From Phycisphaerales bacterium (GTDB lineage: Bacteria > Planctomycetota > Phycisphaerae > Phycisphaerales > UBA5793), in contig JADZAS010000004.1 of NCBI GenBank assembly GCA_020852515.1, positions 62,001 through 126,000 of the forward strand: 64,000 nt of DNA, read 5' to 3'. Shown here piece by piece: positions 4,045 to 42,692 of the stretch (positions are counted from its first letter, which is position 1; every line of letters begins with the position of its first letter). The notes under the pieces were generated by a model. It was not told the origin of the DNA and searched no databases. It saw only the letters and a list, made by a program, of their open reading frames with translations. Position numbers and translations under genes: made by a program.

Positions 4045-4201
4045 GGCGTCATGCTACCTTGCCTGCGGAAACGGGCAAGTGCCCTGACGTGTCCCGGCGA
4101 CCGGTGTCGCGGACGCGCCGTACATTCCGGCTTGCCTTTCCCGTCCAAGTGGATGATGCTACATCACTGGCCTTCTGCCGTTTCCTGGAAAGGAGCACCC
4201 C

Positions 4202-4771
4202 GTGGGCACAGCCGCCATCGTGTTACTGGTCTTCGTCGGCGCGTTCGTTCTCTTCCTGCTCTGGGCGATCGGCATCTTCAATGCGATCAAGCGCAAAGAG
4301 ATCGCCGCCGAGGCCGCGTGGTCGGATATCGACGTGCAGCTCAAGCGCCGGCACGATCTGATTCCCAACCTGGTCGAGACCGTCAAGGGATACGCCACGC
4401 ATGAGAAGCAGACGCTCGACGCGGTAATCTCGGCTCGCGCCAAGGCAGTCAACACCTCGGGCGTTGCGGCTCGCGGTCAGGCCGAGGGCGAACTGAGCCA
4501 GGTGCTCGGCCGGCTCATGGTGCTCAGCGAGGCGTACCCCGACCTCAAGGCGAACCAGAACTTCCTCGCGCTCCAGGAAGAACTCACGAGCACCGAAAAC
4601 AAGATCGGCTTCTCGCGCCAGCATTACAACCGCAGCGCCCAGCAGTACAACGAAGCCATCGGCGTGTTCCCGGGTGTGCTCATTGCCGGTCTGATGAACT
4701 TCAAGGAACGGGAGTACTTCGAGATCGAGAACCCGGCGCAGCGCGAGGCGCCCAAGGTGCAGTTTTCCTGA
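4202..4771 (+). CDS. lemA: LemA family protein
   Basis: A 189-residue LemA protein: one N-terminal membrane helix (about residues 4-23) followed by a long helical cytoplasmic bundle. Family signatures are visible: EAAWSDIDVQLKRRHDLIPNLVETVKGYATHEKQTL and a C-terminal FNEAIGVFPG-type segment (YNEAIGVFPGVLIAG). It starts with GTG, supported by a GGAAAGGAG ribosome site about seven bases upstream. LemA proteins are frequently encoded next to HtpX/M48 proteases and DUF3137 proteins, exactly the arrangement that follows here; the biochemical role of the family is not settled. A second, divergent LemA is encoded at 21616-22179. Confidence 0.93.
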   Translation: MGTAAIVLLVFVGAFVLFLLWAIGIFNAIKRKEIAAEAAWSDIDVQLKRRHDLIPNLVETVKGYATHEKQTLDAVISARAKAVNTSGVAARGQAEGELSQVLGRLMVLSEAYPDLKANQNFLALQEELTSTENKIGFSRQHYNRSAQQYNEAIGVFPGVLIAGLMNFKEREYFEIENPAQREAPKVQFS

Positions 4772-4803
4772 CCTGATTGCTCCTCGGCGGAGTCGCCCGG
4801 CCG

Positions 4804-5904
4804 ATGTCTGAAGCCATCCACACCGACAACCCGGCCATACGCGGCCTGCCCGCGAACGTGACGTTTCACGACCTGATCCGGCGCAACAAGCGGCGCAGCG
4901 CGCTGCTCATGGTGGGGATGGGTCTGCTGGTGGTGCTGGTGGGTGTGGCGGTCACCATCATCATCGGCATGTACACCGGCTTTGCGCGCGACGAGGTGAA
5001 TCTGGTCCAGTCGCTGATCCTGGGCGCGGCCGCGTCGGCGCTGGTGGCGACGGTCGCGGGCGTGTGGAGCTTTTACGGTGGATCGAGCGCGATTCTGGCG
5101 ATTTCCGGCGCCAGGGAGATCGCCAAGAAGGACGATCCGCAGCTGTACAACGTGGTCGAGGAGATCGCCATCGCCGCGGGCGTGCCGCCGCCGAAGGTCT
5201 ATCTCATTGACGACACCGCTCTGAACGCCTTCGCCACGGGCCGCGATCCACAGCATGCGGCCGTGGCGATCACCAAGGGGCTGCGGGCCCAGCTGAGCCG
5301 CGACGAGCTGGCCGGGGTCATGGCGCACGAGATGTCGCACATCCGCTTCTACGACATCCGCTTTGCGATGCTCATGGCCACGATGGTCGGGCTGATCGTC
5401 TTTGCCTCCGACGCCGTGCTGCAGATGATGCGCCTCCATTTCTGGTACGGCGGGGGCCGGCGCGGCTCGCGCCGCAGTGGGGACAACAAGGGCGCGGCGA
5501 TCATCATGCTCGTCGTCTTCGTCATCTCCATCATTCTCATGATCATCGCGCCGACGCTGGCCATGCTCATTCGCATGGCGGTGAGCCGGGAGCGCGAGTA
5601 CCTCGCCGACGCGGGCGCGGTGGAACTGACGCGATATCCGCAGGGGCTGATCTCGGCGCTGAACAAGCTCGGCGCCTGCCGCGAGCCGCTGGAGGTCGCC
5701 AACCGCGCCACCTCGCACCTGTACATCGTCAACCCGATGAAGCAGGCGCTCAAGGGGCGCGGCCACGAACTCAATAGCGTGTTTCGCACGCATCCGCCGC
5801 TGCACGATCGCATCGCACGCCTCTCGGCGCTGATCGCAGCACCCGCGGCGGCGGCGGACAAGCCGAAGCCACGGCCGTCGGAGCGGCGCGATGGAAGGGC
5901 TTAA
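4804..5904 (+). CDS. HtpX-like M48 family membrane metalloprotease
   Basis: A 366-residue zinc endopeptidase of the inner membrane, probably involved in membrane-protein quality control. The zinc motif HEMSH lies at about residues 175-179 (GVMAHEMSHIRFYD), and the third-ligand glutamate is in SREREYLADAGAVELTR near residues 261-277. Two membrane helices precede the catalytic domain and two more lie inside it (about 190-215 and 235-260), as in HtpX. Start ATG at 4804 is preferred over an upstream TTG at 4777. It follows lemA by 32 bases, and its last 14 bases overlap the next gene, suggesting translational coupling. Compared with E. coli HtpX it is longer at both ends. Confidence 0.9.
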   Translation: MSEAIHTDNPAIRGLPANVTFHDLIRRNKRRSALLMVGMGLLVVLVGVAVTIIIGMYTGFARDEVNLVQSLILGAAASALVATVAGVWSFYGGSSAILAISGAREIAKKDDPQLYNVVEEIAIAAGVPPPKVYLIDDTALNAFATGRDPQHAAVAITKGLRAQLSRDELAGVMAHEMSHIRFYDIRFAMLMATMVGLIVFASDAVLQMMRLHFWYGGGRRGSRRSGDNKGAAIIMLVVFVISIILMIIAPTLAMLIRMAVSREREYLADAGAVELTRYPQGLISALNKLGACREPLEVANRATSHLYIVNPMKQALKGRGHELNSVFRTHPPLHDRIARLSALIAAPAAAADKPKPRPSERRDGRA

Positions 5905-6610
5905 TGTCCTTTTCGTGATCGCCGTGGTCGCGGTGATCGCCGTGCTCGCCTACTACTCGTGGAAGGCCGAGCGGCAGCGCACGAAGGACCTCGCGGCGAT
6001 GGCCCGGCGCCTGGGCTTTCGTTTCAGTCCATTGCGCGATGAGTCGCACGAGCAGCGGTATGGCCACTTTGAAGTCTTCCGCCAGGGCCACAGCCGGTGC
6101 GCGTTCAACACGCTTACCGGCAGCCTGGCTGTCGGTGAGCGCGCCCTGCCGATCCTGCTGGGCGACTACGAGTACAAGGTGACGACCTCCAACGGCAAGT
6201 CGACGCAGACCACGACCTATCACTTCAGTTTCGCCATCGCGCATCTGCCGTATCCGAGCGTGCCCGACGTGCTCATCCGGCCGGAGGGATTCTTCGACAA
6301 GATCAAGTCGGCCATCGGATTCGACGACATCGACTTCGAGTCGGCCGAGTTCAGCAAGTGCTTTTTCGTGAAGTCGCCCGACAAGCGCTTCGCCTACGAC
6401 CTGATCGACCCGCGCATGATGGAATTCCTGCTCGCCACGCGGCCGCCGGGTTTGGACATGGAGCGCGGGCGAATTCTGCTCACCGACGGCAGCCGCCGGT
6501 GGGAGCCCGCGCAGTTCGAGCGGAATCTCCGATGGATGCAGGAGTACCTCGAGCGCTGGCCGCGGCACCTGGTCGATCAACTCGAAGGCGGCGGCGTCAG
6601 GTCGCTTTGA
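5891..6610 (+). CDS. DUF3137-like membrane-anchored protein
   Basis: A 239-residue protein with one N-terminal membrane helix (about residues 5-22) and a soluble domain. The C-terminal half contains FESAEFSKCFFVKSPDKRFAY and a following DPRMMEFLL segment, which resembles the conserved core of DUF3137 proteins; I assign the family with moderate confidence. The gene overlaps the M48 protease gene by 14 bases, giving a LemA-M48-DUF3137 cassette on one transcript. Its 3' end overlaps the convergent thioesterase gene by 14 bases. No catalytic motif is evident; a role in the same envelope quality-control system is inferred from context only. Confidence 0.7.
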   Translation: MEGLNVLFVIAVVAVIAVLAYYSWKAERQRTKDLAAMARRLGFRFSPLRDESHEQRYGHFEVFRQGHSRCAFNTLTGSLAVGERALPILLGDYEYKVTTSNGKSTQTTTYHFSFAIAHLPYPSVPDVLIRPEGFFDKIKSAIGFDDIDFESAEFSKCFFVKSPDKRFAYDLIDPRMMEFLLATRPPGLDMERGRILLTDGSRRWEPAQFERNLRWMQEYLERWPRHLVDQLEGGGVRSL

Positions 6611-7025
6611 CGAACGGCGTGGGCCGGCCCGCTTCATCCACGGCGACAAACGTAATCTGCGCCTCGGTCACGTCCACGATTTCCCTGCTCGCGAAGCGCT
6701 CGACCTGCACGAGGACCCGGACGGTCAGGCTTGTCGTGCCGGTGCGGATGGTTTGGGTGTGCAGGTTGACGATGTCGCCGACGAAAACCGGCGCGTGGAA
6801 GATGACCTTCTCCATGGCCACGGTGACCCAGCGGTATGGCCCGTGCTTGCGGGCCTCGATGTAGCCGGCCTGGTCGATGTAGCTGAGAATCACGCCGCCG
6901 AAGATCGTGCCCAGGTTGTTCGTGTCCTTGGGCATCGTCATGATGCGCAGCGACGGCACGGAGTGCTCGAGATCCCAGTGCTCGTGCGGCTGGCCGGTCG
7001 AGGCTCGTCCCGGGTTCTCAGTCAT
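6597..7025 (-). CDS. acyl-CoA thioesterase, hotdog fold (YciA/BFIT-type)
   Basis: A 142-residue single-hotdog acyl-CoA thioesterase. The segment DTNNLGTIFGGVILSYIDQAGYIEARKH carries the typical N-x-x-G-x-x-F/H-G-G ... D arrangement on the central hotdog helix, and the rest (VIFHAPVFVGDIVNLHTQTIRTGTTSLTVRVLVQ) forms the beta sheet. Family members hydrolyse acyl-CoA thioesters in the cytoplasm; chain-length preference cannot be read from sequence. It is the last gene of a minus-strand run, 15 bases after the OppB-type permease, and overlaps the convergent DUF3137-like gene. Why a thioesterase should follow a peptide permease is unclear. Confidence 0.88.
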   Translation of the reverse strand: MTENPGRASTGQPHEHWDLEHSVPSLRIMTMPKDTNNLGTIFGGVILSYIDQAGYIEARKHGPYRWVTVAMEKVIFHAPVFVGDIVNLHTQTIRTGTTSLTVRVLVQVERFASREIVDVTEAQITFVAVDEAGRPTPFVKAT

Positions 7026-7040
7026 GCGCCCTCCGTCCGT

Positions 7041-7994
7041 TCAGGCGAGTTGAATTCGCGGATCGACCCAGCGGTACATCACATCCACGGCGAGATTGAA
7101 CAGCACGAGCATGGTTGAGTAGGTGAGCACGATGCCCATGATGACGAAGAGGTCCTTGTTGAGCACCGAATTGACGAAGTGCTGGCCAAGCCCGGGCACA
7201 TTAAAGACTTTCTCGACCACGAACGAGCCGGTCATGACGTACGCTGCGGCCGGCCCGAGGTAACTGAGCACGGGCAGGAAGGCGACCTTAAGCGCGTGGC
7301 GAAGCACGATGCGGGTTTCTGAGACGCCCTTGGCGCGTGCCGTGCGGATGAAGTCCGACTGCAGCACATCGATCATGCCCAGGCGCGTCAGGCGCGCGAT
7401 GTAGGCCGCAAATGGCAGGCTGAGGGTGAGCGCGGGCAGGATGAGATCGCGCGGCGAACCCCAGTGGGCCACGTGGACGAACTCGAACCACACGGCAAAC
7501 ACAATGAGCAGCGCTGTGCCGATGACGAAACTCGGCAGGCTGATGCCCACCAGCGCTACGAGCAGCGTCGCCACGTCCATCCAGCTGCCAGGCCTCACGG
7601 CGCCGACGATCCCGGAGACCAGGCCGATGGCCAGGGCGAAGACGAGCGCGACCATTCCCAGCACGATACTCACGGGCAGCGCACCGCCGATGAGTTCGTT
7701 GACGCTCCAGTCCTCGTACTGCAGGCAGGGGCCGAGGTTGAAGACCTTGCGCGAGTCGCCGCGCAGCCACGCCACGCCCGACGCCTGGTCGAGGTACGAC
7801 ACATAGAACTTCAGCGGGTCGTCGAGGTTGTATTGCGCCTTCATGGCGTCCTGCACTGCGGGGTCGGGCCGGCGGCCTTCGGGCTTGTCGAGCGGATTGC
7901 CGGGCAGCCACCAGGCGAGCGTGAAGGTCGCCGTATAGATGACCAGCAGGATCAGAGGCACCTGCAGCAGTCTGCGAATGAGCATCGCCGTCAT
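7041..7994 (-). CDS. oligopeptide/dipeptide ABC transporter permease (OppB/DppB type)
   Basis: A 317-residue inner-membrane permease with six predicted helices. The N-terminus (MLIRRLLQVPLILLVIYTATFTLAWWLPGNP) is the standard OppB/DppB opening with the periplasmic PGNP motif. The EAA-type coupling loop is TARAKGVSETRIVLRHALKVAFLPVLSYLG, contacting the ATPase. The C-terminus shows the common VVEKVFNVPGLGQHFVNSVLNKDLFVIMG. The gene follows the substrate-binding protein by 16 bases. The expected partners oppC, oppD and oppF are absent from the window: the next gene is a thioesterase. The transporter must therefore be completed by subunits encoded elsewhere. Confidence 0.93.
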   Translation of the reverse strand: MTAMLIRRLLQVPLILLVIYTATFTLAWWLPGNPLDKPEGRRPDPAVQDAMKAQYNLDDPLKFYVSYLDQASGVAWLRGDSRKVFNLGPCLQYEDWSVNELIGGALPVSIVLGMVALVFALAIGLVSGIVGAVRPGSWMDVATLLVALVGISLPSFVIGTALLIVFAVWFEFVHVAHWGSPRDLILPALTLSLPFAAYIARLTRLGMIDVLQSDFIRTARAKGVSETRIVLRHALKVAFLPVLSYLGPAAAYVMTGSFVVEKVFNVPGLGQHFVNSVLNKDLFVIMGIVLTYSTMLVLFNLAVDVMYRWVDPRIQLA

Positions 7995-8010
7995 GCCGGC
8001 ACTCCCCTGC

Positions 8011-9891
8011 TCACTTCACGACCTCCATCTCCCAGAGGAACTGGGTGAGCCGCGGGTGCGTGGAGACGTTGCGCAGTTCGGCGGGATCGTACATGTACAG
8101 CGTGACCTGGTGAAACAGCGGCAGCAGCGGCAACTCTTCGTTGATGGTCATCGCGTCGGCCTGCTCCAGCAGTTGCATGCGCTTCTGGGGATCGAGTTCG
8201 CGGTCGGCGCGATCCATCAGTTCATCAAACGCGGGGTTGGAGAAGTTGCGGTCGTTGTTGCTGTTGCCGGTGCGGTGCAGATCAAGGAAGGTGGTCGGGT
8301 CGCCGTAGTCGCCGTACCAGTTGCCGCGCGCGACCATGAAGTCGTGCTCCTGGAGGTGAGTGGCCTGCACCTTGGTCTCTTCCTCGCGCAGGCGGCATTT
8401 CACGCCGAGCTGCCGCTCCCACATGTGCGCGATGGCCTGGGCGATGGACTTGTGCTCGGCGACGGACGGGAAGAGAATCTCCACCGTCGGGAACATCTGG
8501 CCCGACGCTTCCTCGATGAAGCCGTCGCCGTCTCGATCGCTCCAGCCGGCCTCGGCCAATTCCTCGCGCGCCCTGGCGGGGTCGTAGCCGATGCCCTTGG
8601 CGCCCTCGAAACCCGCGATGGAGCCGGGCGGAATGAGCACGTTCGCGACGGGCTGATTCATCCGCGTCACGCGCTCGACGATGGCCTGCTTGTCCACCGT
8701 CCGAGCGAAGGCGCGGCGGATGCGCGCATCCTTGAACGGGTTGAACGCGCCGCTGTTGAGCGTGGGCTGGCAGTTGAAGTTGTAGAAGTACGTCCCATAC
8801 GCCGCGAAGGCGTGGATGTCGTTGCGCTCGCCGGGCTGTGGCGGCGATTCCTCTGCGAGGATCGCCATCGCCTCGTTGTAGCCCAGCCCCTGCGCTCGAA
8901 GTTCGTCGTAGCGCGCGGCGTTGCGATCCATGTACTTCCGTTTCTGCACGAGCATGTCGGCGCGGTAGTCCACGCCAACGTCGCTGAGCCAGTTGATCGT
9001 TCCCGTCTCGTACGCGAGCACGGCGGTGTTGGCGTCTTCGACGGCGATGCACAGGACGGAGTCGGATTTGACAGCGCCGGCGTTCCAGTAGTACGAGTTG
9101 CGCTCCAGGCGAAGGTCGCGCATGTAGCGCCACACGGCAAGGATGTACGGGCCGTTGCTCACGAGGTGGGGCGGCTTGGTCCAGCCGTGATGCTGGCGCA
9201 GCGCGCCCGTCGCCGCGTCGAGTTTCACGTAAGGCTCGACGGTGGGCCGGTGCACCGGCTTGAACGGGCCGAACGCCAGCAGATCGAGCATGTAGGGCGT
9301 GGGCACTTCAAGGGTGACCACCAGCGTGCGGGCATCGAGCGCCTTGACGCCGACGGTGTGCTCGTAGCGGGCCAGCGCTTCGTCGAGCATGGTCTGAGCG
9401 AGTTTCAGCCGCTCGGGTCCGCTCAGCGGCATCGCCTGCGTGATGAATGTCTCGAGTTGAGCCGCGCGCCAGTCGAAGAACGCACGGCCCCCCTTGATCT
9501 TGAAGAACAGATCGGCATACCCCGCGACGGTGTCGGGAAAAAGGGCGCGACGCCAGGAGTACGCGAAGTCCGGCGCGATCACGGGATCGCCGTTGGACCA
9601 TTTGGCGTTTTCGCGGAGGTGGAAGGTGTACGTCAGCCCGTCGGGGGAGACTTCCCAGGTCTCCGCCACGCCGGGGACGATCTCGAAGGTGTCGTTGTCG
9701 TGATTGACGAGACCTTCATAAATCGCATCGGCGATGCGGAAGTCCTGTAACCAACTCATGCGCTGCGGGTCGAGCGAGTGCACCTCGCCCCGATTGATGA
9801 ACGTCAGGTCGGCGGCAGGTTGCGGCCGGTCGAGCAGCACCGCGCCAACTACAAGAGCAACCAGCATCAGAATGGGCGCGATCGACCGCAT
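8011..9891 (-). CDS. extracytoplasmic oligopeptide-binding protein (SBP_bac_5 family)
   Basis: A 626-residue substrate-binding protein of the OppA/DppA class. The first 25 residues (MRSIAPILMLVALVVGAVLL) form a signal or anchor segment without a lipobox cysteine. Family hallmarks follow: the LDPQRMSWLQDFRIADAIYEGLV opening, AETWEVSPDGLTYTFHLRENAKWSNGDPV, and late PAFDELMDRADRELDPQKRMQLLEQADAM. It captures peptides in the periplasm for the permease encoded 16 bases downstream. It is about 80 residues longer than E. coli OppA, with extra sequence around residues 330-370. It starts 48 bases after the stop of the preceding HEAT-like gene, so three or four genes may be one transcript. Confidence 0.92.
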   Translation of the reverse strand: MRSIAPILMLVALVVGAVLLDRPQPAADLTFINRGEVHSLDPQRMSWLQDFRIADAIYEGLVNHDNDTFEIVPGVAETWEVSPDGLTYTFHLRENAKWSNGDPVIAPDFAYSWRRALFPDTVAGYADLFFKIKGGRAFFDWRAAQLETFITQAMPLSGPERLKLAQTMLDEALARYEHTVGVKALDARTLVVTLEVPTPYMLDLLAFGPFKPVHRPTVEPYVKLDAATGALRQHHGWTKPPHLVSNGPYILAVWRYMRDLRLERNSYYWNAGAVKSDSVLCIAVEDANTAVLAYETGTINWLSDVGVDYRADMLVQKRKYMDRNAARYDELRAQGLGYNEAMAILAEESPPQPGERNDIHAFAAYGTYFYNFNCQPTLNSGAFNPFKDARIRRAFARTVDKQAIVERVTRMNQPVANVLIPPGSIAGFEGAKGIGYDPARAREELAEAGWSDRDGDGFIEEASGQMFPTVEILFPSVAEHKSIAQAIAHMWERQLGVKCRLREEETKVQATHLQEHDFMVARGNWYGDYGDPTTFLDLHRTGNSNNDRNFSNPAFDELMDRADRELDPQKRMQLLEQADAMTINEELPLLPLFHQVTLYMYDPAELRNVSTHPRLTQFLWEMEVVK

Positions 9892-33183: not shown

Positions 33184-33633
33184 ATGTCACACGCCATTCC
33201 CGCTCGTTCCGTTCACATCGATTCCGCCAGCACGATTCGCGACCCGGCGGCGCACGCCTACTGGATTCTGCGCGTTGGCTTTGCGATTCTGCCGATCGTC
33301 GCCGGCGCGGACAAGTTCATGCACGTGCTCACCGACTGGGAGCAATACCTCGCGCCGTGGATCGCCGACCTCTTCGGCGGCGCTACGCACAACATCATGC
33401 TCGCCGTCGGCGTGGTCGAGATCATCGCAGGCATCGGCGTGGCGTTCGCGCCGCGCTTCTTCGCCTACATCGTGGCGGCGTGGCTGCTGGGCATCATCAT
33501 CAATCTCGTGAGCATGCAGGCGTACTACGACATCGCCCTGCGCGACACGGGGCTGATGCTCGGCGCGCTGGCCCTGGGCCAGTTGAGCCACTGGTACGCC
33601 CACCTCCGCCCGCGCGCTCCAGCAGTGGCGTGA
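33184..33633 (+). CDS. DoxX-like four-helix membrane protein
   Basis: A 149-residue membrane protein with four predicted helices at about residues 26-47, 67-85, 87-105 and 112-135. The pattern WILRVGFAILPIVAGADKFMHVLTDWEQYL at the start and GVVEIIAGIGVAFAPRFFAYIVAAWL in the middle resembles the DoxX/DUF417-like superfamily, small proteins of uncertain redox-related function. A GGAG ribosome site lies six bases upstream of ATG 33184. The 8-bp repeat tract immediately upstream may affect its expression. Confidence 0.72.
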   Translation: MSHAIPARSVHIDSASTIRDPAAHAYWILRVGFAILPIVAGADKFMHVLTDWEQYLAPWIADLFGGATHNIMLAVGVVEIIAGIGVAFAPRFFAYIVAAWLLGIIINLVSMQAYYDIALRDTGLMLGALALGQLSHWYAHLRPRAPAVA

Positions 33634-33715
33634 GGGCAGCGTGCCCCGCTGGCCATCAGAGTACTCAATCATGCCTTGCACGGTCGCGCGGCAGCCGCTC
33701 GCCCCGTTACCCGGC

Positions 33716-35200
33716 TCACTCGATGACCTGCTCGATCACATTGCTGGCGCGCTGGTATTCGGCGGCTTGCAGCCAGGCCCGCCTGCCACTGGCGCCTGAA
33801 GGAATGCGCGTTTGAAGCAGCGCGTAACCGGACTGATCTGCGGTCCTGACCCCGGCCAGGAGTGGACGGGAGAGATCAATCGTCACGTCCAACTGCGGGA
33901 TGTACGTCGAACCGCTGCCGCGCAGACTGTAGATGAACGCAACCCTTCCGCCGGGCGATGCGCCGGACACTTCCAGATCGGCGATGGCTCCCGCCACCCA
34001 CCGCGACGACGAGAGGCGAAAGGCGCCCGCGCCGCCCAATCTTTCCGCGAGGGTAAAACTCGTCGTCCCATCGGGCAGCGTCCAGAACCCGACACACCAG
34101 AGATCGCACTCGCCGACGATGTCGATGCCGCCGCTGCGAATGACATAACTCGCGCCCGGCACCTCGGCGGGCACTTCCGTCCAGGTGCTTCCATCCCAGT
34201 GCCAGTAGCCGTACCAGCCCGACACCCAGACGTCATCGGGACCGACAGCGGCGATCGAGCCGCCGGAGTTGGGCGGCGGCTGCCTGAGGCTCCACTGAGA
34301 GCCGTTCCAGTGCTTCAGCACCACCGCGCCGTCTCCGCCGCCCAGGGCCCAGACGTCATTGGGGCCGGAAGCGGCAATGTCATCCAGGCCGCTGCTGCCC
34401 ATGTGTTCGACCGGGCTGTCAACGTGCGACCAGCTTTGCCCGTCCCAGTGGTAGGTCACGCCGAGGAATGGCCCCGCGACGTTGCGGTAGTCGCCGACGG
34501 CCCAGACATCGTCAGATGCGATCGCGACGACGTCAGTCAGTTCGTGATGCCGGTTAGCGACGAGAGGAACTTCGATATCGGTCCAGTCCGAGCCGTCCCA
34601 GTGCGCTGCGAGGGGAACGGAAGTTGCGCTCGCATCGCCATACCCGGCGGCCAGGCCCACGGCCCAGATGTCATCGGCGGTCACCGCATCCACTTCGTAG
34701 AGGAATCCGCCGCGCGGCCCGAAGGGATACACCGTCTGGGGGCGCAATGTGACCGTATCGACATAGTTCCATGAGTTGCCGCGCCAGCGCAGGACGAGCG
34801 GGAGGTTATTCGTGGGATAGGGCGTGGTGAGGTACCCGACGACCCAGACATCACCGTTGGGAGCCGCATCGACGCCGGTGGTCTGCGGGGAGGTTCCAAG
34901 ATGAGAAGTATCGGGCAAATCGACCAGGCTCCAGGCCGCACCGTTCCAGCGCACGGCCAGAGGCCCGTAGCCGACCGGATCATTGCGCCAGATTCCAACC
35001 GCCCACGCGTCGTCGGGCGAGAGCGCGGACACTCCCGTGAGACGAGTGACGCTGTTGCCGACATCGGGCGTGGGAACAAGTTCCCACGAACCGCAGGGCG
35101 GAGCGGCGTGCGATGCGGCCGCCATCAGTGAAGCGAACAGAATGGGATTCGCCAGGACTCCGACAAACCGGCGATGCGATGTGCGCATTCGAGTCAGCAT
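33716..35200 (-). CDS. secreted beta-propeller-like repeat protein
   Basis: A 494-residue exported protein. The first 32 residues carry a basic start and a hydrophobic core ending in AAASHA, a typical signal-peptide cleavage site. The mature part contains about seven repeats of 45-60 residues with the consensus DDVWAVG ... HWDGSxW, for example DDAWAVGIWRND, DDIWAVGLAAGYG, DDVWAVGDYRNV and NDVWALGGGDGA. This fits a beta-propeller. Residues about 395-494 form a different beta-rich domain (SPGGRVAFIYSLRGSGSTYI). A CAGGGGAG site precedes ATG 35200. An extracellular adhesion or structural role is likely but unproven. Confidence 0.78.
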   Translation of the reverse strand: MLTRMRTSHRRFVGVLANPILFASLMAAASHAAPPCGSWELVPTPDVGNSVTRLTGVSALSPDDAWAVGIWRNDPVGYGPLAVRWNGAAWSLVDLPDTSHLGTSPQTTGVDAAPNGDVWVVGYLTTPYPTNNLPLVLRWRGNSWNYVDTVTLRPQTVYPFGPRGGFLYEVDAVTADDIWAVGLAAGYGDASATSVPLAAHWDGSDWTDIEVPLVANRHHELTDVVAIASDDVWAVGDYRNVAGPFLGVTYHWDGQSWSHVDSPVEHMGSSGLDDIAASGPNDVWALGGGDGAVVLKHWNGSQWSLRQPPPNSGGSIAAVGPDDVWVSGWYGYWHWDGSTWTEVPAEVPGASYVIRSGGIDIVGECDLWCVGFWTLPDGTTSFTLAERLGGAGAFRLSSSRWVAGAIADLEVSGASPGGRVAFIYSLRGSGSTYIPQLDVTIDLSRPLLAGVRTADQSGYALLQTRIPSGASGRRAWLQAAEYQRASNVIEQVIE

Positions 35201-35554
35201 CTGAAACTCCCCTGAGGTGGCCGCCGAGCGACCGGCGGCAAACGGACCGCCATCGCGGCGGCTTGGGATGCAAGTTCATTGCGCGACGCCCGGGCGATCG
35301 ACCCGGCCATGTCGACACGGCTCGCATTCGGTTGATCGTACGGTGTCGATGCGCCGCGCCAACGGAACGGCACTGCCCACTGGCACAATCAGGGTGCTTT
35401 CCTGTACGATCGTCACCCGCCAGCGGCCGCGCGCGCCGGCAGTCGTGTGAGCCTCGGAATCAACGAAACCAAGGTCGGGCTCACGCAGAGGCGCAGAGAT
35501 CGCGGAGTTTTCGACGCGAACAAGAATTGCAATGGCTCGCCGGAACCAGGCCAT
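35201..35554. other. intergenic spacer with one dispersed-repeat copy
   Basis: 354 bases between two minus-strand genes. It must contain the promoter of the propeller-protein gene, but I could not identify convincing -35/-10 boxes. The only recognisable structure is one copy of a 26-base purine-rich repeat (CACGCAGAGGCGCAGAGATC plus GCGGAG) at 35482-35507, also present as an inverted pair at 36360-36434. Short overlapping reading frames here lack ribosome sites and codon character. Confidence 0.5.
35482..35507 (+). repeat. single copy of 26-bp dispersed repeat
   Basis: Matches the left arm of the inverted pair at 36360-36434: shared start CACGCAGA and shared end AGAGATCGC(A/G)GAG, with differences only in the middle. 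It lies intergenically about 45 bases upstream (in + coordinates) of the conserved-unknown gene's stop. Confidence 0.65.
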
Positions 35555-36316
35555 TCACGCCGCCATGCGCATTCCCACCCGACGCTGATTTTCACCCGAC
35601 GCCCGCGACGCCGACTCCCCGCCCCCCGCGCCCACGATCGTCATTGAGCGCGGCAGCGAAAACGGCCCCGCCAGACCCCTCGCCGTCACCCACCGCCCAA
35701 AGTACGTCGCCGTCTTGCCCGCATCGGCCGTGTGGAACTGCACACGAATCGGCTGCCGCGTGTACGCCCCTTCGAGCCGCGCCTCGGATGGATCATTGGG
35801 CGTCGCCCGGCCATACTCGGTGATGGCCACGAACAACTGCAGCTGCGCCACGCCGTACGGCTTGCGCAGCGCCGTCGGCGTGTTCTCATCGGCGTACCGG
35901 ATAAGGTGCCGACCCGCCGCCGCCGAAACCAGCATCATCAGCGGGCACGACCTCGGCGGTCCGATCGGCGACCGCGTCAGGTCATCCACATGCAGCCCCA
36001 GCGCCATCTTCTCCGCGTTGCTCAGCGACCAATTGGATTTGATCAGACCTGCATAGTCTCGATACACCCGCTCCGCCCAGGCGCGTGCTTCATCTTTCGC
36101 CGCCACAATCGCACTCGTCCGCGTTTCGTTCGACTGCGCCAGAACATACGCCTGCGCAAACATCGCCGCGCGGGAGGAGATGAATGCCGCATCCTCCGCA
36201 TCCAGACCGTACCGCGCCGGATCGGCCGCGATCAACGCCGCGAAGTTCGAGCCCCAATCACGAAACGCCACGTCCGCCCTCGGAATGTACGGCCCGGTCT
36301 GAATCGGCGGCGCCAT
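35555..36316 (-). CDS. conserved protein with C-terminal fibronectin-like region
   Basis: A 253-residue protein without signal peptide or membrane helix. The N-terminal 130 residues are helical (IPRADVAFRDWGSNFAALIAADPARYGL, then SSRAAMFAQAYVLAQSNETRTSAIVAAKDEARAWAERVYRDYAGLI). After a proline-rich hinge (SPIGPPRSCPLMML) the sequence becomes beta-rich, ending KTATYFGRWVTARGLAGPFSLPRSMTIV, which looks like an Fn3-type domain. I recognise this two-part layout as a widespread uncharacterised family. A GGGGGA ribosome site precedes ATG 36316. The last 25 residues are Gly/Ala/Ser-rich. Confidence 0.68.
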   Translation of the reverse strand: MAPPIQTGPYIPRADVAFRDWGSNFAALIAADPARYGLDAEDAAFISSRAAMFAQAYVLAQSNETRTSAIVAAKDEARAWAERVYRDYAGLIKSNWSLSNAEKMALGLHVDDLTRSPIGPPRSCPLMMLVSAAAGRHLIRYADENTPTALRKPYGVAQLQLFVAITEYGRATPNDPSEARLEGAYTRQPIRVQFHTADAGKTATYFGRWVTARGLAGPFSLPRSMTIVGAGGGESASRASGENQRRVGMRMAA

Positions 36317-36359
36317 GGCTCATCCCCCTGTGAAATCCAATCAGGCAAACGCATGGTTC

Positions 36360-36434
36360 CACGCAGAAACCCAGAGATCGCAGAGCGGAATCGTCTTCAC
36401 CAAGGCCTCTCTGCGGACTCGGCGCCTCTGCGTG
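36360..36434. repeat. imperfect inverted repeat, 26-base arms
   Basis: Left arm 36360-36385 (begins CACGCAGAAACCCAGAGATC, ends GCAGAG) and right arm 36409-36434 (begins CTCTGCGGACTCGGCGCCTC, ends TGCGTG) are imperfect reverse complements, identical over the outer CACGCAG and inner GCAGAG parts. The 23-base centre is unique. A direct copy of the left-arm type occurs at 35482-35507. Confidence 0.75.
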
Positions 36435-36538
36435 ACAAATCCTCTCGGACCTGCCAAGCGCTCCATCGGCGATTTCATGCGGCGAATTGAGTTCGACAAG
36501 CGAAGCAACCATCGAATCGACCAGACCGCTGTCCCGTT

Positions 36539-36565
36539 TGCGCGAACGGATGACCCGTTCGCGCA
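36539..36565. other. perfect 11-bp hairpin
   Basis: TGCGCGAACGG (36539-36549) and CCGTTCGCGCA (36555-36565) are exact reverse complements around the five-base loop ATGAC. No T-run follows on either strand, so it is more likely a protein-binding palindrome or a repeat remnant than a classical terminator. Confidence 0.7.
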
Positions 36566-36608
36566 GACGCAGGCCCCGGCAGCGCGACCCGCGCGCGCGT
36601 CTGACCAG

Positions 36609-36647
36609 CCCGTCCCCCCGTCCCGCCTTCCCGCCCGCCCGTCTCCC
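36609..36647 (-). other. G-quadruplex-capable tract on the minus strand
   Basis: Seven runs of three or more C on the plus strand (36609-36611, 36614-36619, 36622-36624, 36630-36632, 36634-36636, 36638-36640, 36645-36647), separated by one to five bases. The minus strand therefore carries seven close G-runs, more than the four needed for a quadruplex. Structure formation is a prediction. Confidence 0.6.
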
Positions 36648-36898
36648 GGGCCGAATCTCCCGTCACCCGATCCGCAAGCCCGGTCTCCCCAACCCGATCC
36701 CCGCACCGCGCGAAGCAACAGATGCAACCCGACACCCGCGGATGCGCCCCCACCACGCGAGGCGCGGGCCGCAAAGCAGCCGGCGCAGAACCGATGGCGG
36801 GTCCATCGTGTCCCGGCAGACAGAACACGCACCGCGCGGCGGTTGGGCGGGTTTTGGATGCGGAGTGATTGAAACAGCCCGGACGGAAAGAGACCGAC

Positions 36899-36936
36899 CA
36901 GTCCCGATTACTTCCTCCAGTCCCGATTACTTCCTC
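36899..36936. repeat. tandem pair of 19-bp repeats (left flank)
   Basis: CAGTCCCGATTACTTCCTC occurs twice back-to-back with no mismatch (36899-36917 and 36918-36936). A closely related pair with ATTTC instead of ATTAC occurs at 37573-37609, so the two pairs bracket about 640 bases holding small Cys-rich reading frames. Confidence 0.85.
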
Positions 36937-37173
36937 TGGCGTGAGGCAAGTAGGAGTCAGCGCAGCACGAGATGGATTTACAGAATGATCGCCGCTTCAA
37001 TCGATCGGGTAACTGGATCGTCGACTGGGGATGCCGCGCCAAAGTCGTGGCCAGTCTTGGTGCCATCGGGTTTCACCTGTGGACCGGTGTTGAGGTCAAG
37101 GCCGCGTCTGTAAACTCCGTCTCCCCTTGGGAGTCGGCGGGGGTGAGGGCCGATCTTCCTTGGAGAGCCAATC

Positions 37174-37254
37174 ATGCCGACGAGTGGGCGAACGGCGAGG
37201 AACAAGACACCAATCGAAGCCGGACACGAGCTGGTATTGTGGGAGTTCCAGTGA
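37174..37254 (+). CDS. possible 26-residue leader peptide
   Basis: Short frame MPTSGRTARNKTPIEAGHEL and six more residues, starting at ATG 37174 after TTGGAGAG (six bases spacing). Its stop overlaps the GTG start of the following Cys-rich frame (GTGA at 37251-37254), the usual geometry of translational coupling. There is no other evidence that it is translated; it could be chance. Confidence 0.25.
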   Translation: MPTSGRTARNKTPIEAGHELVLWEFQ

Positions 37255-37526
37255 GGCGTAAGGGCCCGACTGTTTGTCGACATTGCAAAGGTGGCCTCGG
37301 CAGTCCCGAGTGCCTCTATTGCCACGGAACCGGATTGGAGCACTCTGGGCCGTGGCACCCTCAAGGTGCGAGTGGACGGCCCAGCGGCTTGTCTGTTGAG
37401 CCACGACCACTACTGCAACCTCGCTCTCGTATATGCTGGTGCCATCTCTGCGGCTGTGTCCTCAAAGACACGAGACGGTTACGGAGACATCTCAAGGGCT
37501 GCCGTCGGAGGCAACGGCCACGCTGA
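37251..37526 (+). CDS. small Cys-rich putative zinc-finger protein
   Basis: A 91-residue, very basic frame beginning at GTG 37251 with GGGAG upstream. It contains a Cys-x2-Cys-x8-Cys-x2-Cys cluster (CRHCKGGLGSPECLYC) resembling one DnaJ-type zinc repeat (CxYCxGTG), and a C-terminal C2HC-like unit (CHLCGCVLKDTRRLRRHLKGC). The frame stays open upstream to 36972, but that extension has no protein-like character. It lies inside the block bracketed by the 19-bp tandem repeats and upstream of the Mrr-type endonuclease. Two independent plausible metal sites argue for a real gene; no homologue is recognised. Confidence 0.45.
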   Translation: MRRKGPTVCRHCKGGLGSPECLYCHGTGLEHSGPWHPQGASGRPSGLSVEPRPLLQPRSRICWCHLCGCVLKDTRRLRRHLKGCRRRQRPR

Positions 37527-37572
37527 TCCACCAGAATTGCAAGTTTCGATTCTCGTGAGGAGGGAACCGTAC

Positions 37573-37609
37573 CAGTCCCAATTTCTTCCTCTGTCCCAAT
37601 TTCTTCCTC
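37573..37609. repeat. tandem pair of about 18-19-bp repeats (right flank)
   Basis: CAGTCCCAATTTCTTCCTC (37573-37591) is followed directly by CTGTCCCAATTTCTTCCTC (37591-37609, sharing one base). Same family as the pair at 36899-36936. It lies 32 bases upstream of the Mrr-type gene's start codon, where the promoter would be expected. Confidence 0.85.
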
Positions 37610-37641
37610 TCTCGACAGAGTCGGTCTAGGAGAATCAGGAG

Positions 37642-38643
37642 ATGACCAATCCAACGCAAGGTACCGCGTTCGTACTTCGGATTGCGCCGAGTGGCATTGA
37701 TCGCATGCAGGAGGCACTCCGCTGCAACCAGCTTATAATCGGCTGGGCGAAGGCCACAGGCCTCTTGGACGGGTCGCTATCCTGGGAGAGCTTTCGAGAG
37801 ATCATTCGGCTGGCATACCACGCCGGTGAACGCGATCTGCGCGGAGCCGGCCGCGGCGCGGGCAACATGTGGCGATTTATCCGCGACATGCATGTCGGCG
37901 ACCTCGTTGTAGTTCCCTATGGTTCAGCTTTCTATTTGGCCAGAGTGACTGGACCTGCCACATACGACCCTGCCCATGTCAACGACGACACCGCATACCG
38001 GCGGCGCGTTGAGTGGCTCAACAACGGACACCCGATTCCTCGGCAGTTGGCAAGGTCGGCACTGCTTGCCCGGATGAAAATTCAAGGAACGAGCGCACAG
38101 GCCGCGGACCTGCTTGAAGAGATTAATGAGTGTCTAAAGGTCGCTGAGCGCGGCAACCAACCGACCTTCGAGCAAGATCTCCAAGCACGTTTGATCAGAG
38201 AAGTTCTTGAAGAGATGCGCAGTGGCAGAATCTCTGACTTTGGCTTTGAACGGCTCATTCAGACAGTGTTGACAGGGATGGGGGCAGAGGACGTACGCAT
38301 CGTTCCGCGAAACCAGGACAAAGGGGCGGACTTGGTGGCGACGTTCCGCGTCGCGGAAGCATTTGAGATCGTCATTGCCATTCAGGCGAAGCACTGGCAG
38401 CCTTCTCCCCCTGTCGGAAAGGACGTCATCGCGCAAACCATCTCCGGCATCGAAGCGGAAGAGGCCGACTTCGGAATGGTCATCACGACCGGCACTTTCT
38501 CAGCGGACGCAGAATTCACGGCGGAATCGTACTTCAAAGACGAGGGCGTCCGTATCCGACTGATCGACGGTGAGCAGTTTGCCAAGTTTATCGTTGAACA
38601 CGGGATCAGGCTCACGTTGGGCAGCGAAGTGCAGCGGCGGTAG
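37642..38643 (+). CDS. Mrr-type restriction endonuclease with N-terminal PUA/EVE-like domain
   Basis: A 333-residue predicted nuclease. The C-terminal Mrr_cat domain shows the expected residues: Glu203 (GFERLIQTVLTGMG), Asp230 (DKGADLVATF) and Gln248-Ala-Lys250 (IAIQAKHW), the QxK variant of PD-(D/E)xK used by Mrr enzymes. The first 120 residues, with MWRFIRDMHVGDLVVVPYG and a following YLARVTGPATYD strand, look like a small beta-barrel reader domain of PUA/EVE type that could recognise modified bases. Such enzymes restrict methylated foreign DNA and act alone, without a methylase, as found here. Two AGGAG sites precede ATG 37642. Lower GC than neighbours suggests acquisition by transfer. Confidence 0.85.
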   Translation: MTNPTQGTAFVLRIAPSGIDRMQEALRCNQLIIGWAKATGLLDGSLSWESFREIIRLAYHAGERDLRGAGRGAGNMWRFIRDMHVGDLVVVPYGSAFYLARVTGPATYDPAHVNDDTAYRRRVEWLNNGHPIPRQLARSALLARMKIQGTSAQAADLLEEINECLKVAERGNQPTFEQDLQARLIREVLEEMRSGRISDFGFERLIQTVLTGMGAEDVRIVPRNQDKGADLVATFRVAEAFEIVIAIQAKHWQPSPPVGKDVIAQTISGIEAEEADFGMVITTGTFSADAEFTAESYFKDEGVRIRLIDGEQFAKFIVEHGIRLTLGSEVQRR

Positions 38644-38927
38644 ATTCCCGCGGGCAACATTTGGGTCGCATCTAAACTGAGTGGAAAGTTGAGTGCGGTG
38701 GCCGCCGTGCACCGTCATCGCCAAGCCACTCCCACCGTCTCTCTCGACGCGCCGAAGGAGCGGGTAGAACTCCTTTTTGCGTTGTGGACCCCGGCGGAGC
38801 CGATACCATATCCTGTAGGGCTGTACACTCAGCCTCGGGGTGGGGTCGGCGGTGGAGTTGCCGCGTTCGTCCTGCTCCGTAAGTCCTGTAGCGCCCGACG
38901 GTTGGACATGGAGGTCTTGCCCGAATC
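38644..38927. other. intergenic region before smc
   Basis: 284 bases between the endonuclease and smc. I looked for SRP RNA, RNase P and tmRNA signatures on both strands and saw none. A GGAGGT at 38910-38915 lies 12 bases before the smc start and may be its ribosome site. Nothing else is recognisable. Confidence 0.4.
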
Positions 38928-41900
38928 ATGCGACTGGCCCGACTCAAACTGCACGGTTTCAAGTCCTTCGCCGACGCGACCGAGTTTCGCTTCGACGATC
39001 CCATCACCTGCATCGTCGGGCCCAACGGCTGCGGCAAGAGCAACGTCGTGGACGCCATCAAGTGGGTCCTGGGCGAGCGGTCGGCCAAGAGCCTGCGCGG
39101 CGAGCAGATGATGGATGTCATCTTCGCTGGCACGACCAGCCGGCCCTCGATGAACATGGCCGAGGTCGTGCTGACCTTCGAGAACCCCCTGCTCGACGCA
39201 GCCAGCGGCAAGCGCGAACTGCCGGTGGAGAGCGAACTGGTCGATGTCGGCCGGCGGCTGTATCGCGACGGCACGAGCGAGTATCTCATCAACAACGCCA
39301 AGGCGCGTCTCAAGGATGTGCGCGACCTGTTTCTCGATACCGGCATCGGGGCCGACGCCTACTCGATCATCGAGCAGGGCAAGGTCGATGCCATGCTCAC
39401 GAGCAACCCCGTCGAACGCCGGACCATCTTTGAAGAAGCCGCAGGCGTGGCCAAGTTCAAGGTGCGGCGGATCGAGGCGATGCGGCGGCTCGAGCGCACC
39501 GAAGTCAACCTGACGCGCTGCAGAGAGCAACTCGACAACGCTGAGCGCCGGCTGCGGATCGTCAAGGGCCAGGCGGCCAAGGCGCGGACGTTCAAGGGAC
39601 TCGACGACGAGTTGCGGGCCCTGCGCGCGGCGCATCTGCTCGATCTGTATCACGAATTGCACGAGACCATCGACGGGCTGACGTCGGAGCTGAGCCACCT
39701 CGAAGCCGACCGGACCAGCGTGATGGACCGCGTGCACGAACTCGAAGAAGCGCGGCAGGATGCGAACATCGAGCGCGACCGGCTGCAGACGCGCTGCACG
39801 GAACTCGAGCAGGACCGGCTGCAACTGCAGGCGCGGCGGGACCAGGCCGAGCAGCGGCGGGCCATGACCATCAAGGCGCGCGATGAAGCGCAGGCGGAGA
39901 TCGGCGCCGAGCAGCGCCGGCTGGGCGAACTGGATGCGAAGATCGACCAGTTGCGCCGCGGCGTGGTGGATCACGAACAGTCGCACGAAGCGCTGGCCAG
40001 GGCCCGAAGCGACGCCGAGCGCGCTGTCGAGGCGGCGCTGGCGAGGCGGGCCGAGTGCGATGCGGCGCTGAACGAGTTGAACCGGCGCCTCAGTGAGATG
40101 CAGCGCACCCTTTCGGGTATCGAGCGCGAGATCGTCTCGCAGGCGGCGTCGATCGAGGCGATCGATCATCGGCTCGCCGAACTGCAGCAGCAGGCCGAAC
40201 AGATCGAAAGCCGTCGCGGCGAGATCGAGTCGCGCCTGACGGCGCTGGCCGACCAGGCGGCCGAAGCGGCCCGGCGAGCCGACGCGGCTGACGCGCAGAT
40301 CGAACAACTCGAGGCGCAACAGGTCGAGCACGAGCGGCAGGCCCAGAGCCTCAGCGGGCGGCAGCGTTCGTTGAGTGAAACGCTGGGCAACCTGGAGCAG
40401 GAGCGCGCCGGGCTCGAGGCCCGCCGGCGAACGCTCAAGGAGATGCTCGACAGCGGCACCGAACTGGGCGAAGCGGTGCGCGGCGTGCTGCGGCAGCGGC
40501 ACGAAGGATCGGGCTTTCAGTTCGTGCGCGGCCTGCTTGCCGACGGCATCGAGACGGACATCCAGCACGCGGCCGCGGTCGAAGCGGCGCTGGGCACACT
40601 GCTCCAGGCGATGGTGGTCGGCAGCCTGACGGAAGTCATCGAAGCGCAGGCGGATCTTGAGGCGCTGTCGGGTCGGATCACCTTCCTGCCGCTGCGCGTG
40701 TTCGGAGATGAAGCGACATCGCAAGCGGTCGCGCTGCCATTGATCGAGGGGGCGCGATCGTTGCTCTCGGTGGTGCGCGTGCCCGATGAGTGGATGGGGC
40801 TGGCGACTCGGCTCTTTGCGCGGACGATCATCGTGGACACGCTCGACAGCGCCCTGCTGCTGGCCGCCGGGCCGATGCGCGAGTGCCGATTCGTGACGGC
40901 CGGCGGCACCGTGCTGGAGACGGACGGCCGGATCATCGCCGGGCCGAATTCAGCCGAGGGCACGGGCGCCGGGCTCATCGTCCATCGAATCGAAATGAAC
41001 AGCCTCGCCGAGCAGGTGGAGGCTCTCACCACGCGGATCGAGGCGCTGCGCGTCGAACTGGCCGCGATCGACAACGAGGCGGCGGCTCTCGACCAGCGGC
41101 GCTCGGCGCTTGGTCAGAGTCTCTTTGAAACGCGCAGCGCGCGGAACAAGGCCTCGCACGACGCCGAGCGATTCGAGGCCGAAAGCCAGCGGGCCCAGCG
41201 CGATGGGCAACGGCTCGATGAAGAACTCAGTGCGGCCCGCTCGCGCCGAGATGAACTGACCGCCAGCCGGGCCCAGAAGCAGGAGCATCTCGACTCGCTG
41301 GAGCGATTGCGCGAAGACGAGGCCGCGGCGCAGGCGTCTCTGCGCGAGCAACTGGAGTCGGCAGAGCAGAATGCCGCGGAGACCGCGGAGTCGCTCACGA
41401 CGCGCCGCGTCGAGGCGAGCCAGGCCAGCGAGCGGCTGGCGGCGTCGGACCGCGAACGCCGACAACTCGAAGCAGCCGTGCAGGAGCAGCAGCGGCAGCG
41501 GAGCATGCTCGAAGCGGCGCTCAAGCAGCGAACAGGCAGGATCATCGAGTTTGAGCGGGTCATCGATGAAGCCGTGTTCGAGGCCGAAGAATGCACGAAA
41601 ACCCTCGGTGAGTCGGAGGGGCTGCTGGAACAACTTTCAGCCCAGCGCCAGGCTTGCCAGGCCAACGTCGTCGAACTGGGTGATGCGCTCAACGCCGCGA
41701 GGCAGCGATTGTCCATCGTCGAGCGCAACTACCACGCCGTGGAACTGAGCAAGCGAGAAAACGAAGTCAAGCGCGAGCATCTCGAGCAGAGCAGCGCTGA
41801 TGACCTGTCGCTCGATCTGCCGAGCGAGTACCCCGAGTACCGCCTGATGATGCAGTCGGGCGACGTGCTGGCAGTCGATCGCGAGCAGGCGACGGCACGG

Positions 41901-42692
41901 ATCGACGAACTGCGCGGCGCCATCAAGCGCCTGGGCAACGTTAACCTCGATGCGATCGAAGAAGAGAAGGAACTCGTCGATCGCAACGAGGATCTCGTGC
42001 GGCAGGTCGGCGATCTCGATGCGGCACGCGGCCAACTCATCGAACTCATCGAGGAACTGAGCAACCTCAGCCGCGAGCGATTCAAGGAGACGTTCGAGAC
42101 CATCCGCGAGAACTTTGCAGGCACCAACGGTATGTTCCGGCGCGTGTTCGGCGGGGGCAAGGCGGACATGCACCTCATCCCCAACGAAGAGACGGGCGAA
42201 GTGGACTGGCTCGAATCAGGCATCGACATCGTCGCCAAGCCGCCCGGCAAGGAGCCGCGCTCGATCAAACTGCTCAGCGGTGGCGAGAAGACGATGACGA
42301 GCGTGGCCCTGGTGATGGCGATTTTCCAGAGCAAACCCAGCCCCTTCTGCCTGCTCGACGAAGTGGATGCGGCGCTGGATGACGCCAACGTCGAACGGTT
42401 CTGCGGCGTGCTGCACACTTTCCTCGATCGCAGCCACTTTGTGATCATCACCCATAACAAGCGCACCATGCAGGCGGGCGACCAGTTGTATGGCGTAACG
42501 ATGCAGGAGCGCGGCGTGTCCAAGCGCGTCGCGGTCCGCTTCGACCAGGTCGGCGCCGACGGGCACATCTCAAAAGAAGCGCTCAAGGAAGCCGAGGCGA
42601 CGGTCTCCGTCGGCGGCGCCGCCGCGGGCGAAGAGATGGACGGGCCGATGGTCGAGACCGTCTCGCGGTCCGGCGCCGCGATGCAGAACTGA
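38928..42692 (+). CDS. smc: chromosome segregation protein SMC
   Basis: A 1254-residue structural-maintenance-of-chromosomes ATPase that forms a V-shaped dimer and compacts and segregates DNA with ScpA/ScpB. Order of parts: N-terminal half-head with Walker [10 protein letters not shown] (residues 31-39) and the [12 protein letters not shown] loop; long coiled coil; hinge at about 520-680 ([25 protein letters not shown]); return coiled coil; C-terminal half-head with the signature [18 protein letters not shown] (near 1114) and Walker [17 protein letters not shown] (near 1138). It is slightly longer than B. subtilis SMC (1186) because of a C-terminal extension of about 40 residues ([21 protein letters not shown]). 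No scpA/scpB nearby. Confidence 0.97.

Follow-up and report, generated by a model that had tools for sequence, protein, structure and literature searches.

Elements of the IS200/IS605 type encode a HuH/Y1 transposase and have MITE-like derivatives, namely internally deleted copies, as does the family described here. Among the relatives of the RAYT transposases, the TIRYT/TIRtron group has been described as carrying terminal inverted repeats (TIRs) in place of GTAG REPs, with the TIR consensus GGGGWSAS and with many TIR elements in dimers or clusters (Di Nocera et al. 2013, PMC3733652). The account of Quentin et al. (2018, PMC6006769) places most TIRYTs in TnpA-REP subclass 2.1, in whose vicinity REP-like sequences are reported to be absent. 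Here we analysed a 64-kb stretch of a Phycisphaerales genome (the window, i.e. the whole 64,000 nucleotides) with two conspicuous tandem repeat pairs. They very probably represent solitary, partly decayed TIR arms of a TIRYT-type (RAYT-related, HuH/Y1) element, whose transposase gene is located on contig C15 of the same genome (G000) and whose ends have been doubled locally.

The left pair consists of two perfect copies of CAGTCCCGATTACTTCCTC at positions 36899-36917 and 36918-36936 (period 19), exactly as the initial annotation had it. The related pair that it reported at 37573-37609 is present as well (CAGTCCCAATTTCTTCCTC, 37573-37591; CTGTCCCAATTTCTTCCTC, 37591-37609), but its units overlap by one base, which results in a period of 18 and not 19. 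With up to three mismatches, the 19-mer class has exactly these four matches in the window and none in 100 dinucleotide shuffles of it. All four units lie on the plus strand, and the block between the pairs is therefore bracketed by direct and not by inverted repeats. A genome-wide search (39 contigs totalling 4.72 Mb; completeness 96.7%) showed that the earlier reservation that the motif might occur only here applies to the strict 19-mer class, which is confined to this locus, but not to the wider family: the widened pattern ACCNGTCCCNNTTTNTTNC, with one mismatch allowed, is found at 46 places (26 on the plus and 20 on the minus strand), two of which are the window arms, compared with no place for the reversed pattern. 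A chance origin of the repeats is ruled out by the shuffles and the reversed-pattern controls. Many family copies are located near contig ends (C2, C15, C19, C21, C22, C37), often in alternating orientation.

The family sequence AAACGTACC(T/A)GTCCCnnTTTnTTnCC also constitutes the inverted repeats at either end of L015 (G000:C15:103464), a resident Y1 transposase gene outside the window's contig, with GGGACAGGTACGTTT to its left and AAACGTACCTGTCCCGTTTTCTTGCC to its right. These arms point outward on both sides, and tandem units are present on either side too. The product of 227 residues matches PF01797 with 49.8 bits (cut-off 23), harbors the HuH motif NHWH and reaches 69.7 bits against NCBIfam NF047646 (REP_Tyr_transpos), which is below the curated cut-off of 80; it has a C-terminal extension of about 100 residues, for which an HTH-like domain (Bac_DnaA_C, HTH_23 or HTH_28) would be the subclass 2.1 trait; Pfam gives Y1_Tnp as the only domain of the product. 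The L015 arm CGGGACAG agrees with the published GGGGWSAS in seven of eight positions, the window copies in six to seven. These comparisons establish both the arm family and its link to the transposase gene. The REP/RAYT likeness proposed initially is thereby confirmed in one respect, because the GTCCC family forms the ends of a RAYT-like Y1 gene, and the match to the published TIRYT/TIRtron group indicates that this lead was right in kind. Identity with REPs in the strict sense was rejected: GTAG is absent from the window arms and the L015 arms, and the window copies form no stable hairpin, folding no better than shuffles (z = 1.9 and -0.1).

Units of about 271 bases share both ends with the L015 element; they match the beginning and the end of its gene, the middle being absent. 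According to this alignment (11 units, eight of them good; L054 poor, L051 and the short L053 partial), they are internally deleted derivatives (MITEs) of the L015 element. At one locus close to a contig end (L053, G000:C21:168000-177255; positions 3862-9131), arms and ~271-bp TIRYT MITEs alternate with small genes whose products (215-238 residues) resemble each other and in several cases terminate in a Cys-rich CTECG-type motif; the arrangement resembles an array of paralogous genes with MITEs in between.

In the window, the left arm (36892..36936, plus strand) comprises a degenerate inner half, GACCGACC, and perfectly doubled outer 19 bases, whereas in the right arm (ACCGTACCAGTCCCAATTTCTTCCTC; 37566..37609, plus strand) the outer 18 bases are doubled, and 32 bases separate its end from the start codon (ATG) of a nuclease gene. 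They diverge from the C15 element by GATTACTTCC and AATTTCTTCC in place of GTTTTCTTGCC; the inner ACGTACC is missing from the left one. A position matrix trained without the window on 53 arm sequences from other contigs, among which are several second units and at least two arms of doubtful status, one from L050 and one from L054, scores 23.4 at 37566 and 13.3 at 36892. These are the top two values of the 64 kb, compared with 8.7 for the next unrelated place in the window and null maxima of 8.1 in twenty Markov sequences and 11.7 in the reversed window. Scores of the second units are lower (8.3 and 5.9), in line with copying of the outer half only. In agreement with the early statement that no transposase is present, Y1_Tnp is absent from the window's contig, and tblastn searches of the window with seven TIRYT-like proteins gave no match at E ≤ 0.01. 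A decayed transposase copy inside the block was ruled out as well, since tblastn and blastn did not go beyond chance (best E 0.027). Within the block, neither an inward partner arm nor a piece of a transposase gene is left. The two same-facing arms and the lack of a transposase remnant are thus indicative of end remnants rather than of a complete element.

These ends are typically prone to doubling: of the 42 arms in the genome, 12 are accompanied within 40 bases by another unit or arm (own reading), namely by a full outer unit in six cases, a partial one in four and a whole second arm in two. In nine tandem arrays, including both window arrays and one from the related genome G001, the mean number of differences over 11 outer bases is 0.56 within an array compared with 2.98 for shuffled partners, and none of 20,000 partner shuffles was as low as 0.56. 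The units are far more alike within than between arrays, which documents that the second unit was copied from its neighbor and that the doubling is a local event that took place in situ. Direct 10-mer repeats (within 60 bases, in 170-base gene flanks) accompany 9 of the 13 L015-like, i.e. TIRYT-like, genes, compared with 1 of 11 IS200-like Y1 genes; of about 500 random segment pairs from the window, 27 have them. This bias argues against plain replication slippage in pyrimidine-rich DNA without any transposon connection, as does the fact that a matrix trained on transposon arms picks out the window arms; short tandem duplications are possible anywhere and the units are indeed pyrimidine-rich, but we regard this scenario as extremely improbable. 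Direct repeats were also found at L146, L151 and L152, whose arm sequence is of another type. The left repeated unit of L152 contains locus-specific outer bases that differ from the right side, thus suggesting that the duplication postdates the insertion and that its junction is located slightly outside the conserved arm.

Duplications associated with these arms also exist in longer versions. Three copies of a gene 3' end at L058 (1783-2114) and L059 (2401-2070 and 3701-3579) differ in their left edges, and all of them stop at the outer end of an AATCGTACCAGTCCCGTTTTCCTGCC-type arm. At 1961-2279 of L063 (G001:C23), 159 bp comprising a gene 3' end together with its arm are repeated in tandem without any change, the copy beginning directly past the arm.

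In our preferred scenario, the TIRYT-type family is spread through the genome in the form of an autonomous copy, internally deleted MITEs of ~271 bp and solo ends. The window arms would have arrived by transposition in the past, and the outer 18-19 bases of each would have been duplicated in place after the arrival of the arm. The doubling may have been caused by repeated nicking by the transposase at the outer end of the arm followed by repair, or by simple slippage. A single genome displays the full ladder from the autonomous gene over MITEs and solo ends to ends duplicated in place, and if the duplicated unit marks the DNA that is cut, it would allow the cleavage site to be approached from the sequence in this transposase group, whose target is not defined in the descriptions consulted. 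Titles and opening abstract lines of the papers retrieved on TIRYTs, RAYTs and planctomycete MITEs make no mention of a tandem duplication of these ends. A more far-reaching proposal, which we consider rather unlikely, is that TIRYT transposases nick repeatedly just outside the element ends and that repair gives rise to tandem duplications that grow outward, their outer edge being fixed and their inner edge variable. If true, it would account for doublings of 12-19 bp like those in the window, and equally for the longer units with host gene 3' ends (159 bp at L063; L058/L059), thereby providing these transposases with a route for the copying of neighboring genes.

The DNA enclosed by the two pairs (36937..37572; 636 bases) has a G+C content of 59% compared with 65% in the window and exhibits no similarity to the TIRYT gene or its MITE. 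It contains an open frame of 184 codons (36972..37526, plus strand), whose last 91 codons correspond to the Cys-rich frame on which the proposal of a block of small Cys-rich genes was based. Neither coding statistics nor homology support this proposal. The log-likelihood of codon usage is -0.16 per codon for the 184 and -0.34 for the 91 codons; the next gene reaches +0.13 and smc +0.33. In the four other frames of the block that were tested, the score is negative as well. The long frame lacks a Pfam match at E ≤ 1 as well as matches in NCBIfam and PADLOC, and a second copy is missing from its own genome. Four matches at E ≤ 0.001 were obtained in 301 genomes of the order; one is the window's own, and the other three (E 7e-4 to 9e-4) cover 22-33 residues once re-aligned. 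A Cys-rich gene was rejected given that there is no codon-usage support and no family and that the homologues are weak, and the 184-codon frame is probably not an intact gene. In its first third, two segments of 120 bases have small positive scores (+0.10 and +0.02 per codon), and a decayed gene is therefore possible. The DNA between the pairs is probably not a gene; most likely, the 636 bases represent unselected and presumably functionless DNA and not a cassette.

The coding analysis also bears on a regulatory explanation, according to which the pairs are operator or promoter repeats that bind a regulator of both adjoining frames, perhaps the Cys-rich product itself. The spacing fits, as the distance from the end of a pair to the next ATG (36972, 37642) is 32-35 bases in both cases, but the first of the two frames is without coding support and no sigma-70-like promoter was detected in 36700-37700. 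Moreover, copies of the motif are dispersed over the genome and linked to a transposase gene, and elsewhere the arms are located at 3' ends of genes as well as at 5' ends (own reading). A role as operator is accordingly very improbable.

The gene downstream of the right arm (37642..38643, plus strand) encodes a Mrr_cat-type restriction endonuclease of 333 residues (PF04471, E 1.1e-21) and corresponds to the PADLOC candidate defence system PDC-S02 (E 2.4e-27). Its G+C content is 58% compared with the 65% of the window, and G001-G004 harbor weak or partial matches only and no close homologue. The following smc gene (38928..42692, plus strand) is a conserved right anchor that was found in all five relatives searched. 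In G004, which belongs to the same genus, the segment 36718..38771 is replaced by about 2.25 kb of other DNA, while the flanks are 86.6% (33289-36717) and 88.9% (38772-41022) identical. The alignments with G001, G002, G003 and G005 end just upstream of smc; weaker aligned pieces are present further left in G001 and G005, and the G001 contig ends nearby. These comparisons show that a variable stretch of about 2.05 kb, including the nuclease gene, is genome-specific among the genomes compared and that its edges are not the arms. An arm scan of the five corresponding regions revealed no arm, and both the repeats and the block are missing at this locus in the comparisons with G001-G005. No arm-free site with matching flanks was detected among the relatives compared, which are distant, same-genus genomes. 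The region 36700-38800 matched neither the plasmid nor the phage collection. The smc-adjacent site of G004 (L082; G004:C25, about 3504-5751) carries other accessory content.

The arms thus sit in a hypervariable accessory stretch beside smc together with a Mrr-family nuclease gene, and the question arises whether they delimit a mobile block, as the initial annotation claimed. In such a TIR-bounded cassette, the 636-bp block, alone or together with the nuclease gene, would be a passenger that the transposase mobilizes between the arms. The presence of arms on both sides and the variation of the locus between relatives are in line with this assumption, and further analogies come from other sites: other genes are located between arms elsewhere in the genome, the duplicated gene 3' ends of L058/L059 stop at the outer end of an arm, the 159-bp copy of L063 ends with one, and a gene between motif clusters in L118 is presumably MscS-like. 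However, the window arms face the same way, whereas those of the autonomous and MITE copies are inverted, and the segment that is variable in comparison with G004 (36718-38771) does not coincide with 36899-37609. The enclosed frame is single in its own genome and has no convincing copy in the 301 genomes of the order. The claim of a bracketed mobile block is thus unsupported, and a cassette is quite unlikely in comparison with solitary TIRYT arms.

The association of arms and transposase was further investigated in related genomes. The six genomes of the family contain 45 Y1_Tnp matches, and 31 loci were examined. Whole, partial or degenerate arms adjoin all five L015-like frames (L015, L094, L095, L098 and L102, from G000, twice G001, G002 and G004); they point outward on both sides of L015 and L094/L144 and are partial, degenerate or of mixed orientation at L095, L098 and L102. 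The motif is missing beside the IS200-like Y1 genes of the family genomes. Of 400 genomes surveyed in the order, six contain the exact arm core and 34 an L015-like gene (E ≤ 1e-30). Five of the six also harbor an L015-like gene (hypergeometric P 1.9e-5, kinship ignored), but three of these five represent one genus; the sixth, G300, has the arm and no listed L015-like gene. A GTCCC arm accompanies 5 of 13 L015-like loci, all of them in the window's genus, and is absent within 220 bases (strict pattern) of the other eight, indicating that the link between arm sequence and transposase holds only within this genus. Several of the eight loci carry other inverted repeats when inspected by eye, e.g. 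AAAGGTTCCTGACACCTTT (L150) and CGACTCCCGACCCC (L149), so that the transposase clade seems to have retained its architecture and changed its arm sequence.

A GTDB-wide scan with the narrow double motif yielded no match, and a looser tandem pattern nine loci in eight MAGs. Y1_Tnp was detected in seven of the eight genomes searched, with L118 standing in for its MAG, from which L120 also comes. A TIRYT-like frame adjoins the motif at two of the nine loci (L113, L118). The surroundings of L118 are T-rich and L114 resembles an array of simple sequence, hence not all of these loci are transposon ends. Tandem GTCCCC pairs are also present in the order genomes G282 and G294, with no TIRYT-like frame in the loci of 1.9 and 3.0 kb. 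In L113 (positions 1-660), which originates from a Candidatus Taylorbacteria MAG, GTCCCCATTTCTTC units, some of them full and some truncated, form a ladder behind the end of a TIRYT-like gene, whose 3' terminus is present a second time.

With the IS200/IS605 derivatives, the family thus shares the type of transposase and the internal deletions, but it has inverted-repeat arms, and the IS200-like Y1 genes of these genomes are devoid of the motif. REPs and REPINs with their RAYTs, as portrayed in PMC2817692 and PMC3116915, are likewise non-autonomous repeats tied to a Y1 transposase gene, and two facing arms in MITE-like units are another common trait. They differ from the present case, in which the GTAG tag and a stable hairpin of the window copies are missing and the ~271-bp units contain remnants of the transposase gene. 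The closest correspondence is with the TIRYT/TIRtron group as depicted in the publications cited at the outset: the Y1 transposase gene L015 is located between long inverted repeats instead of GTAG REPs, and the repeats represent a moderately abundant dispersed family that occurs in dimers or clusters. In contrast to the published elements, the window contains no complete TIRYT element, its copies are solo arms that face the same way, and the arm core varies among related transposases. Locally doubled outer units do not feature in the descriptions of PMC3733652 and PMC6006769. The ends in the window belong to a known kind of element, the TIRYTs, and their duplication in place is the interesting part.
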